From Boletus sp. NGJ (Eukaryota > Basidiomycota > Agaricomycetes > Boletales > Boletaceae): 64,000 bases of DNA. Numbering within the stretch: position 1 is the stretch's first letter; every line of letters begins with the position of its first letter. Below the pieces are notes generated by a model. That model was given only the letters and a program-made list of their open reading frames with translations. It was not told the origin of the DNA and did not search any database. A program made the position numbers and the translations under genes. Location of the stretch: NCBI GenBank assembly GCA_019096195.1, contig JAGTXK010000030.1, positions 62,001 through 126,000 of the forward strand. Direction: 5' to 3'. This document shows positions 28,834-34,441 of the stretch, in pieces.

Positions 28834-29177
28834 GATGTACTGGCTGCCCTAGTTCCCATGTTCGTCCTCCAAGTTGAATTTGACTTTAATTTGGCTCAAG
28901 TACGATAGATGCAGAATTCGTTTATTCAGATTACTCCATGGGAAACGTCTGGAGTGCAATCCGACCTTGAGAAACCCACAGAAACGTTCCATCGAAAAAG
29001 TCCAGGTGGTCCAGACTGGTCCACAAAATCAGATTCCCTCTGCAACATGCAAAAGTCCATGAATCGGCAAAGTGCATGTTGACAGTCGGTCCTCGTTGTA
29101 CTGGTAGTAGTACCTAGATAGGGACGGAATTGAAGTACTTTTCCCTGAGTCGGACCTTTACTTACTCCTCGTATTGC

Positions 29178-29298
29178 CAGGCTCCGACGAAAATGTTCCA
29201 GTCCGGCGCTGGTGTCACAAGTACTGTGAAGTAATCAGAATATCGCGTGATGAGCTCAGTACTAGTACTAGTAGAAATGGATTTGGAAAGTGTCTCGT
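29178..29298 (+). repeat. Dispersed repeat, right copy
   Basis: Shares the two blocks described for 24840-25266: 29178-29214 and 29273-29298. A short CTAGTA run (near 29260-29272) lies just before the second block. Confidence 0.75.
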
Positions 29299-29619
29299 GC
29301 TTGTCTAGAAGAACTCGCGGACGAGTCGGAGGCAGCCTAAGTTGGTCGCTAGGCTATCACGCAACAAAGCGGCGAACTGGGAGCAAGTACTGGTATGGAC
29401 CGTCGGTATAGGCTGAGCCCGTCAACCCGGTTTTCTGGGACAGCGCCATAAACAACAACTACTAGTTTGAGAAGAGGCCAAGGTAACGTTATTTCATTGA
29501 AACTCGAATTCCGGGGCTGAGTCGCCATTCTATTGTTCAGTTTCGCTTTTGGGGGTAGTTGGGTTCTTTGCATGACAGGCGGCGAGTTTCTACTTCGCTT
29601 CCCGGTTCCTCTCGCCCTT

Positions 29620-29626
29620 TATAAAT
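29620..29626 (+). promoter_or_regulatory. TATA box of the amine oxidase gene
   Basis: TATAAAT lies 55 bp before the ATG at 29675. Confidence 0.6.
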
Positions 29627-29674
29627 CCCTTTCTGCGGTCGTCGTCTTCTGGGCCCCTTCCCTACCGTACTGAC

Positions 29675-31766
29675 ATGCTTCCTTCCAGAGTGCCGTCTCG
29701 TTTTGCTCTGCTTGGACTAATATTGTCTAGTACTTGCTCAGGTGTATTCGCTCAGAATGCGAACACGACTGCCCTCAGGCATACCACCGTCCTTATCCTC
29801 GGCGGTGGTCTGACGGGTGTCATTGCGGCTCGGAACCTTCACGAGCAGGGCATCGACGACTTCATCATCCTCGATGCCAAGACCGAGTTGGGTGGCCGAA
29901 TGAGTCCCAAGACATTCGGTGTGGCTGGTCGACAAGTCGTCGTCGAGTTAGGCCCAAACTGGATTCAGGGAACGCAGCAAGGCGATGGTCCTGCGAATCC
30001 CATCTGGGAATTGGCACTCAAACATAATCTCAGTACCGTCTACAACGACCTGTACGGAAACGTTAGTATGTGTATCCTTTTACCCTTTAGAAATGCGTGC
30101 TCATGGGCCCTAGCTACCTACGACGGCAGTGGTTACAACAACTACACTGACGTGTTCAACAACGCGGTCGATAATTTTGTTCAGGCCACTGTTGTTGCAG
30201 GTATATACAGTTTTCTAGTCCTCTGTCTTGAACGCCCCCTGATCGTCGTGAACTAGGCTCGCGGTTAGAAGAAGGCGAAGTTGATCTGAGTCTGAGATCG
30301 GCGTACGGTCTCATGGGTATCAGCCCAAAAACACCACAAGAGGACGCCAGCGACTACTACCAGATTGACTGGGTATGCAACACTTGCCTTGAACATAGAC
30401 TTGGCTGATCCGTTCGTCAGGAATGCAAGTCATGTCTTTATTTTCTGCGGCGGTGGAGGCTAACGCCTTTGATTGATTACCACTCGATGCAGATGCACAG
30501 GTATGAAAATCTGATGTAGACCTTGAACTGCTGTCTGAGTCGTCTTCAGTCACCCTCACAAACCTCATGGCTCGCTTCTGCATGGGTAAGTCCCGGGTTG
30601 ACGTATTGTTGGTTCCATCTTCATTTTCGATAGAACAATAATTTCACGTATGTCCCTGAATATGGAGGGTTTTCGGATGTCAACGAGATGTGCATCGACC
30701 AGCGAGGATTCGCATACATTGCCCAGGCGGAAGCAGCGGACTTTCTACAACCACAACGAGTGATCTATAACGAGACCGTCTACCTCATCGAGTATGGCGA
30801 ACACAACGTGACGGTGCACACGACCAGTGGCCTGACGATCACTGCTGATCACGTTTTGTGCACGTTCAGCGTCGGGGTCTTGCAAAATAGTGATGTTGTG
30901 TTCCAACCTCCCTTGCCCGATTGGAAAGTCGAGGCCATCAACAGCATTGAAATGGTTAGCCGACGGTCGTGTTTAGGTCTGGGTACTTGGATACTGACCA
31001 TGCCTTAGGCTACCTACACGAAGATTTTCCTTCAATTCAACGAGACCTTTTGGTTCCCGACGGAGGTATGCCCCTCACCACGCTCTAACAATATCTTTTT
31101 ACCTGGATCTCGTTTTTAGATGGGATTATATGCAGCCGAGCAAAGAGGAAAGTATCCCATTTGGCAGAGCCTGGATCACGTCGGATTCTTCCCAGGTTCT
31201 GGTATCCTCTTCGTCACAGTCACCGTACGTACATGCCGAGCCACAACGAAAAAACGATCACTGCGCTCATAACTCTCTCTCAGGGCGATTGGTCTCTCTA
31301 CGTCGAGCAGCTCACTCCCGCCCAAGTCCAGTCGGAAGTCATGGACGTTCTCCAAACCATGTATCCCAACATCACCCTCCCCCAGCCCGTCGATTTATAC
31401 TTCCCGATCTGGGCGTCGAACAAGCTGTTCCGAGGCTCGTACTCGAACTGGGGACCGTCCTACGTCCCTGCGCACTCGGAAAACTTGAGAGCGACGCTCG
31501 ATGACCATCTTTGGTTCGCTGGCGAAGCTACCAGCGTATTGTACTTTGGTGCGTCGTTCCTTCTCCGAGTCGCTTCGCTCCACTGATGCGACTTTTTTTT
31601 TTTTTTTTTTCGTTCCCCAGGTTTCTTACAAGGCGCCTACTTTGAGGGTGCGAGTGCTGGGTCTGATATTGCGGCGTGCATCCAAGGAAAGGCGAGTTGT
31701 CAACGCCCTCACGTCACGATCCCGAAAAACGCTCAGCCGTATCCGAGCATGTTGACGTCGTATTGA
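29675..31766 (+). CDS. Secreted FAD-dependent amine (polyamine) oxidase
   Basis: Predicted to oxidise polyamines or related amines with release of hydrogen peroxide. A signal peptide (about residues 1-26, ending SGVFAQ) precedes the FAD-binding dinucleotide fold VLILGGGLTGVIAARNL, the ELGGRM motif and the ELGPNWIQG loop. Further blocks are FTYVPEYGGFSDVNE, SVGVLQNSDVVFQPPLPDWK, and the C-terminal FAD contact HLWFAGEATS. Many N-glycosylation sites are present, as expected for a secreted enzyme. Splicing is unusual: the frame DWEYAQSPSQTSWLASAW is only obtained with a 4-nt exon (30421-30424) and an 8-nt exon (30493-30500), the first followed by a GC donor. The last intron carries a long T-run (about 31591-31611). 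The gene is convergent with the permease gene. Confidence 0.9.
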
Positions 31767-32019
31767 AATGTGGCGGCTCGTCCTGGACTCGTTAATTGTC
31801 GGACCATGATTGTGTTTTTGGACCGGCGTGTCGAGTTGACGTTGACAGGTGTTGCTAAACGAGTGACCACGGTTAAGGTAGAATCAAAGAATGGGTGTTC
31901 GATACCGTAGCTGTGCGAGGTTCTCACCAATGAAAAGCCGTACACACATCTATTGCACATGCAAGGGTGCAGAACAGAACAAAAGCAAAAAGCGCATAGA
32001 GAACAAGTTCGACACGACA

Positions 32020-34441
32020 TTATTGTACTTCCTTCACTTCCACGACCGCTTCTACCTTTTGATCCGCCAAAGAACCACTGCTGCCATCATCCTTGTGCAG
32101 GTTCGGCACAGGCCCGGTGAACCAGTGCACACCGCCGTAGACGGGGAAGTAGTACCAGACGAGCGAGAGGGAGAGCACACCGCCCAAAACGACGACGGTG
32201 TAGTTCATGCTCGTTGTGCTCGTCTGTGGCGTAGTGGGGAAGAAGAAGACGATGTCCATGAACGCCATGAAGCTGACGGAGATGATGCCGACGGGAAGGC
32301 TCTGTAAGACGTGGGATCAGCTTCGTTCCCAACATTGGGGAGGGAGAGGGACTGACAAATACGCCGAGGTTGAACGGTCCAGGCTTGAAGTTATTTTTGA
32401 AGATGAACCTCGATGCAATTGGGATGGCGTATGCAACGTAGAGCCCAGTGACAGAGATTGCAAAGACGGCATTGATAGCTTGGGGGCCCGCGAGCGCAAG
32501 CAAGCCTAGGAGGGTGGAAACCGTGACGACGAACCAGACGGTGTTCACGGGTGTGCCGGTGAAGCTGTTCATGCGGTACAGGATGTTTGAAAGCGGAAGG
32601 GCACCGTCACGAGAGAACGCAAAGGATTGACGTGACGCAGCGAGGACCTGGAATAAGGTATGAGTGCGCAGAATACGTGCGCAAATAGCAAAGAATGAAT
32701 CACCATGCTGGATCCCATCATATATCTAAGCACAAGATAAGCATAAGGGGGATACGGACGGGCTAAACGAGCACTTACTGCCCAAGGACGACGAATGCCC
32801 ATAGGATCAAGGTGCCATTTTGTCCAAAGCTGTTCAAAAATATATATGCCATAGGTTGAGGGCTGCTTATGAGACTTGTGATGTCGGTTCCCATGCAGAA
32901 CGCAAGGGAGATATTGATCGCTAATTTTCACCATCAGGACGTGAATAGTTGTGATCAGGTGCCAATGCGCACCCCAACCAAGTACACCGGCTATACCAAC
33001 TGCACTGACCTGCACGAATTAGCTCAAGTGACGGCAAGCAGACGGTACACTCACGATTGCCCACGGCACGGCGGTCGTTGCATTCGAGGCTTCCTCGCTA
33101 ATGTGTACACTCGAGTCAAATGAACCTAAACGATTCAGTCGGTACAGTCAACTGTGGGAGAGCGATGAACATACAAATGGTCCAGAGAGGGGCAAGGAAG
33201 GAGAGGATAAATGCGTAACCGCTCGTCCAGCCATTGACTAAGCGATGGGAGTTGGTTAGAGAGCAAGAACTGATAAGGAGGACCGACAATTGGAAAAGTT
33301 CCCCAAGGCGAAGCTAGCGGTATTCATGTATTCCTTTGGGGTAGCAGCTGGAAGACCGATGATGACGACGAAGCAGAGGCTGATAACGTGAGTTAGGATG
33401 ATTCGGGCGAGGGCATATGGAATAACTCGAATGGAGACACTCACCATAAATTGAGGAGGATATAGAGATTCTGTAGTCTCGCAAGGACGGCAGTTCCAAG
33501 AGAGCAGACGATGCCATGAGAGAAGAGTACTGCCACATAGATCCCGCTGTATGATGTCAGTGAGGCGAGAAACAGAAGAGGGAGAAACGGGGGGGAGACG
33601 TACAAGGTTTGCTGCTGTGTAGCAACAAAGTTCTGGTTGCTGATATTAACTGCTGCGGCAATCTGGACTGCGCAACCCCAGTCAATGGAGGCTGAAAGCA
33701 ACACACGACATGTCATAAAGTCGATCGAAAGGCAGAATGAGGTGAATAACCCACCAACTGATGCAATGGAGCCGATTGTATTTGAATCTGAGGTGATTGT
33801 AAACTGGGTGTAAGGGGTATCCGCAGTTTGGACGTACAACCAACGATCCAGGAGAGAAGGTTTCGGCAGCGAGGTGAAGACAAAGAGTGAGTCCAGAAGT
33901 AGAGCTATATCACACAATGTTCATCTCGTTGGGCGGGGGAATGTGCCATAGTGGGACTCACCCCACCAGAAGTAGGTGCTGCGGAACCAAGCTCTGCCAT
34001 GGACATTGCGACGCAGAGGATAAAAAGGCTTGCGACCGCCCACTGGATATAGATCAGATCAAGGCCACCAGCTACTCAAAGATCGTACGTACACCCCATA
34101 CCATTGCGGAAGGACCACCATTGGAAAGGGAATAAATGAGGACGGAGCTGTGTGTCGGCGAGGTGAGCCCCGTCGTGCGGATGAAGACTCTAGTCGAGCT
34201 ACGCACGCAATCGACGGCAGCAAGCCGATGACGCTGAAAGCAACTCCAAAGAGCTACGGATACGACTCAGTCTGTGATACTGAAGAGGTTCAGTGCTAAT
34301 CACCTCTAGCGGAGTGAAGGCCCTCTTGAATTCCTGCTTGTAACCGAGCTCGGCAAGGACCTGCTCGTCTGCTTTGTCGAGTGTCTGTTTGTTGGTCATG
34401 GTGGGGACGAGAGAAGAGGTGACATTATCCGCAACTGGCAT
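32020..34441 (-). CDS. Amino-acid/GABA/choline permease (APC superfamily, ACT family)
   Basis: A membrane carrier with about 12 predicted transmembrane helices, for uptake of amino acids, GABA or choline. The N-terminus (ADEQVLAELGYKQEFKRAFTPLE) is the family signature. Later blocks are FGVAFSVIGLLPSIAS, NGGPSAMVWG, MAELGSAAPTSGGLYFW, AFILSFLAPLWTICSFDSSV with HISEEASNATTAVPWAI, and a C-terminal region with NSFTGTPVNTVWFV. Many short GT-AG introns interrupt the gene. The longer in-frame start at 34441 is chosen, and an ATG at 34399 is an alternative. The substrate cannot be told from the sequence. Confidence 0.88.

Follow-up and report, generated by a model that had tools for sequence, protein, structure and literature searches.

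Can a coding sequence run through two consecutive exons of only 4 and 8 nucleotides, and what would such exons contribute to the protein? The question is raised by a flavin amine oxidase gene of Boletus sp. NGJ (29675..31766, forward strand; eleven exons, ten introns, 511 amino acids), which lies in a window of 64,000 nucleotides, by which we mean the whole stretch of DNA that was analysed. We consider it highly probable that the gene codes for a functional polyamine-like flavin oxidase, that three introns occur within 12 of its coding nucleotides, and that the 4- and 8-nt exons encode the active-site residues EYAQ; the introns would then be removed in an ordered manner.

The spliced model is free of stop codons from the ATG to the terminal stop, and its product has the characteristics of a flavin polyamine oxidase of the ZmPAO type. 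The 511-residue protein contains the Pfam domain PF01593 (Amino_oxidase, E=7e-53), and residues 38-490 align with maize polyamine oxidase (1b37, E=1.7e-69), which amounts to full-length similarity. NCBIfam profiles gave only weak matches, all below their cut-offs. As judged by eye, the N-terminus resembles a signal peptide, and the enzyme is probably secreted. In the alignment, the maize catalytic-site residues Glu170 and Lys300 correspond to E199 and K326 of the window protein. The positions of maize Phe403 and Tyr439 are occupied by Tyr428 and Phe465, both aromatic but swapped; according to the excerpted text of a family survey, this aromatic pair is a peculiarity of clade I polyamine oxidases (PMC7576179). 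At the position of maize Glu62, Gln is found in the window protein and also in its intact paralog, L003, which is described below.

The junction under study lies on the forward strand between exon 3 (30257..30372), whose 3' end reads ...GAC TGG, and exon 6 (30550..30585; 36 nt, TCACCC...GCATGG, SPSQTSWLASAW). Reading from GACTGG, intron 3 (30373..30420; 48 nt, GT-AG, gtatgc...gtcag) is followed by exon 4, which consists of GAAT only (30421..30424, 4 nt), then by intron 4 (30425..30492; 68 nt, GC-AG, gcaagt...tgcag), by exon 5 (ATGCACAG, 30493..30500, 8 nt) and by intron 5 (30501..30549; 49 nt, GT-AG, gtatga...cttcag), after which the coding sequence resumes at TCACCC. Exon 4 supplies the codon GAA for Glu199, opposite maize Glu170, and the first base of the Tyr200 codon; exon 5 supplies the remainder of Tyr200, followed by Ala201 and Gln202. 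Together they spell Glu-Tyr-Ala-Gln (EYAQ, residues 199-202). Both are microexons in the usual sense of very short, intron-flanked exons of less than about 30 nt. The earlier note had given the GAAT exon, its GC donor and the ATGCACAG exon with correct letters and coordinates. The sequence CAGGAATGCAAGT occurs 7 times in the whole genome. The copies of the amine oxidase gene account for 3 of these occurrences; the remaining 4 were viewed with short flanks only.

The block EYAQ faces E170-F171-A172-E173 of the maize enzyme without a gap. Glu170 is counted among the key catalytic-site residues of the polyamine oxidase family and is well conserved across clades, being Gln in AtPAO5-like enzymes and undefined in some sequences, and Glu173 is highly conserved as well (PMC7576179, as excerpted). 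Exons 4 and 5 would thus include the predicted active-site glutamate. We compared several candidate splice forms with the maize protein by phmmer. For the window gene, the form with EYAQ scored 234.3 bits, those with SYAQ and VYAQ 232.1 and 231.1, and the form lacking both microexons 227.7; for L003, the values were 215.7 with EYAQ, 210.1 with VNAQ and 207.8 with both skipped. The margins in favour of EYAQ are modest, 2 to 8 bits. Relatives were also sought in prokaryotic genome contigs. A first scan returned 123 pattern-matching stretches, none of which was a relative, and a second returned 91, including one distant protein from an Acidobacteria MAG that matched at residues 257-480 only; in this 438-aa open reading frame an EYAQ-like block was not visible by eye. 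As to gene structure, intron 5 (30501) sits directly after the codon opposite maize Glu173, and excerpts of the same survey report an extra intron at the Glu173 position in AtPAO1-like plant genes too (PMC7576179); for a position common to the fungal gene and these plant genes, both shared origin and parallel gain are possible.

The reading frame by itself does not single out this arrangement of exons. Starting at a set codon of exon 3 (30352) and ending with the last base of exon 6, we enumerated all chains in which no more than three introns, 45-200 nt long and with GT/GC-AG ends, are removed. Open, in-frame products resulted from 44 of the 269 chains, and exactly one of them gave EYAQSPSQ; with the minimal intron length lowered to 40 nt, 60 of 420 chains were in frame, and again only one contained EYAQSPSQ. 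The statement that this is the only join keeping the family frame therefore fails for the frame alone and holds for EYAQ. Similarly, omission of the 4-nt exon shifts the frame, as had been claimed, if GAAT alone is left out; when both microexons are omitted (4+8=12 nt), the frame is kept and the product reads DWSPSQTSW.

How readily such an insert could arise by chance was assessed with shuffles of the composite intron, in which dinucleotides and the outer six bases at each end were kept, the donor that follows exon 3 was retained as the first, and no more than three introns, each of 40-200 nt, were allowed. Some in-frame insert of four amino acids was available in 9,482 of 20,000 shuffles of the window sequence and in 9,535 of 20,000 in a separate run with L003. 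An in-frame insert of the type E[YFW]A[QE] was found in none of the 20,000 shuffles in either run. These two runs do not constitute independent evidence, because the copies share descent. Under the same rules, the real sequences permit eight in-frame inserts in the window stretch and seventeen in L003, and the only outcomes common to both are no insert, EY and EYAQ.

The microexons are retained in other copies of the gene in the same genome. The intact paralog L003 lies outside the window but on the contig that carries the window gene, at a distance of about 47 kb (G000:C38, at about 139 kb). Spliced in this way, it too yields a full-length 511-aa open reading frame. It also has eleven exons, of which the nine internal ones are equal in length to those of the window gene, including those of 4 and 8 nt; its introns 3-5 measure 50, 69 and 50 nt, and the GC donor is shared. 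The two proteins are 79% identical, and over 508 codons dS is about 0.96, dN 0.114 and dN/dS 0.119; the pair is therefore under purifying selection. When the composite introns of the two copies were compared, the longest runs of identity were TGCAGATGCACAGGTA (16 nt, 30488-30503) and GTCAGGAATGCAAGT (15 nt, 30416-30430), that is, the microexons with their splice sites, and the next-longest runs reached 10 nt. Across all ten introns, identity between the intact copies is 70% (349 of 497 aligned positions). This intron identity, taken from gapped alignments, stands beside a 54% difference at synonymous sites, and gap fitting may explain part of it. L003 keeps the equivalent of Glu170 and has Arg at the position of maize Lys300 (motif TYTRIFLQF), where the window gene has Lys; it has Tyr at the Phe403 position and Arg at the Tyr439 position. 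Judging by these residues, the activity of L003 may be changed.

An apparent third copy is split on contig G000:C31. Its 5' half (L002, at about 159 kb) covers residues 2-199 and its 3' half (L004, at about 125 kb) residues 214-494, with about 32 kb between them. The broken 5' half retains GAAT with its acceptor, the GC donor and ATGCACAG, and diverges from the other copies exactly at the border of exon 5 and intron 5. Upstream of the 3' half there is an open reading frame with a weak HTH_23 match, below the cut-off, which possibly belongs to a transposon. A search of the genome with the protein gave, among the 20 best candidate matches listed, only matches within these three copies; a search with PF01593 gave weaker matches on contigs C89, C19 and C59 (E 1.5e-4 to 7.9e-4). 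Thus the microexons are conserved among relatives, these being relatives within the same genome and one lineage. The agreement between the copies makes a sequencing error at the microexons unlikely.

The splice signals were scored with a matrix built from this gene pair, hence from few sites, with introns 3-5 left out of training. With the second intron base ignored, the donors of introns 3-5 hold ranks 1-3 among the 23 GT/GC sites of 30366-30555, the GC donor AAT|GCAAGT being second of the 23. Its score is 2.20 in full and 5.52 without the +2 position, where GC is penalised. Intron 4 has the features of a GC-AG U2-type intron, namely a GC donor with an otherwise strong consensus, present in three copies. 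The acceptors are less uniform: among the nine AGs of the window stretch, introns 3 and 5 use the ones ranked 1st and 3rd and intron 4 the one ranked 7th, and under the leave-out matrix the intron 4 acceptor scores poorly in the window gene and in L003 alike (-5.28 and -3.49). Branch-like sites were found in both intact copies 12 nt from the 3' end of intron 3 (CTGAT) and 29 nt from the 3' end of intron 4 (CTAAC/CTAAT), and at 35 nt in intron 5 of the window copy; a search of intron 5 of L003 revealed none, and neither did one of its intron 10. Taken together, the paralog, the broken copy, the maize alignment, the donor ranks and the shuffles support the interpretation given in the earlier note, with coding exons of 4 and 8 nt, and on the genomic sequence we conclude that the amine oxidase gene very probably contains these two consecutive coding exons.

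Other ways of joining exon 3 to exon 6 have to be weighed against this. Both microexons could be skipped within a single 177-nt intron (30373-30549), which yields DW-SPSQTSW and a protein four residues shorter. This form is in frame, has GT-AG ends and combines the rank-1 donor with the rank-3 acceptor, and an automatic gene predictor could well pick it. However, it loses the catalytic Glu along with the aligned family block, falls short of the EYAQ form by 6.6 bits (window gene) and 7.9 bits (L003) in the comparison with maize, and leaves the longest conserved stretches, the microexons with their splice sites, unexplained. Its single intron would also be an outlier, because the ten introns of the model are 48-72 nt long. 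We regard this form as distinctly unlikely. Very improbable, in our estimation, is the use of other sites that avoid GAAT: DWVYAQ, for instance, would result from a GC donor at 30377, and DWSYAQ from inclusion of TCAT (30430-30433) as an exon. The conserved Glu is lost in either case, and the scores against maize are lower, although in the window copy by only 2-3 bits. Both forms are in frame and stop-free, and DWVYAQ has an in-frame counterpart, DFVNAQ, in L003; yet its donor TAT|GCAACA has a negative score and comes 9th among the 23, while for DWSYAQ the acceptor before TCAT is the last of nine and SYAQ is absent among the in-frame inserts of L003.

A different proposal accepts both microexons and makes them a coupled, regulated pair: inclusion of both would give an active enzyme, exclusion of both an in-frame product without the catalytic Glu, and exclusion of one a frameshift, with the GC donor and the weak intron 4 acceptor setting the ratio. 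If this were true, the fungus would control an oxidase via 12 nucleotides. The 12 nt do jointly keep the frame, each of the three copies has the GC donor, the intron 4 acceptor is weak in both intact ones, and a fungal microexon switch has been published, the 20-nt microexon of Trichoderma Xlr2 (PMC11121469, as excerpted). No sign of regulation was seen in the sequence, however. RNA folding across the three introns was no better than in shuffles (z -1.15 and 0.65 for the two copies) and in neither copy supported a structure bringing the splice sites together, and an Rfam scan of 29000-32500 gave no match at the gathering score. Such a switch seems quite unlikely to us. As for a stwintron (nested twin intron) in place of the microexons, such introns occur in fungi (PMC5639578 and others) and those of this gene are very closely spaced, but no intron has a splice element interrupted by another intron, and conserved coding bases, 4 in one case and 8 in the other, stand between neighbouring introns; its probability is close to negligible.

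If, as we favour, both microexons are coding exons, they are most likely constitutive, because loss of one shifts the frame and loss of both removes the catalytic Glu. Each of the short introns would be recognised by intron definition, with its own donor, branch site and acceptor, and neighbouring introns would be removed one after another. We infer this sequential order because two spliceosomes cannot flank 4 nt simultaneously. Removal of the first intron would place the microexon inside an exon of normal length, from which the next donor could then be used. The locus is a clean case of a short-intron spliceosome facing exons too small for two neighbouring complexes to flank, and with the microexon pair the idea of ordered (recursive) intron removal can be put directly to the test in a fungus. 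The locus further illustrates that an active-site residue could vanish from a predicted gene without trace, since a wrong model skipping both exons would look right as its reading frame stays intact.

Tiny exons are a known kind of feature, seldom reported at this size in fungi and easily missed by gene prediction. That exons this short are very rare, as the earlier note put it, fits the literature, with the qualification that 1-nt and 4-bp cases are known (PMC12940212, PMC4674806 and PMC9929638, each in excerpt). Among the matches listed, which lay largely outside subscription journals, we found neither such a microexon pair in an amine oxidase nor a 4-nt exon in a basidiomycete; in the excerpts of PMC3990503 and PMC4014442, microexons appear only as an aligner setting. 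The comparisons that follow likewise draw on excerpts of the papers cited. The closest fungal case in these papers comes from Fusarium, where CYP621A has a 1-nt exon that the authors present as the first in a gene of a fungus (PMC12940212). There, too, an ultra-small exon preserves the frame in a conserved enzyme motif and is conserved among related genes, but it is a single, read-confirmed 1-nt exon of an ascomycete P450, whereas here exons of 4 and 8 nt follow in a row in an amine oxidase, with a GC donor, and are predicted from genome sequence. Among basidiomycetes, Phanerochaete chrysosporium CYP5141A1 has an 8-nt microexon (PMC12940212), and in the P450 set of this fungus the shortest exon is 6 bp and introns of 45-55 bp are frequent (PMC1184071); these genes resemble ours in having microexons in conserved enzyme motifs and short introns, and differ in belonging to another family and in that no microexon described in the excerpts is as short as 4 nt. 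Two microexons in a row are known from rice, where adjacent exons of 5 and 12 nt were validated by RT-PCR in a plant (PMC8831610). The human MPC1 microexon is likewise 4 bp long, not a multiple of three, and constitutive; unlike the introns here, which are shorter than 70 nt, those flanking it exceed 12 and 3 kb, and exon definition applies (PMC9929638). For the 1-nt exon of Arabidopsis APC11, a plant gene with a single such exon rather than a pair, the authors propose intron definition and recursive splicing, with the flanking introns removed sequentially (PMC4674806), as we suggest for the amine oxidase gene.
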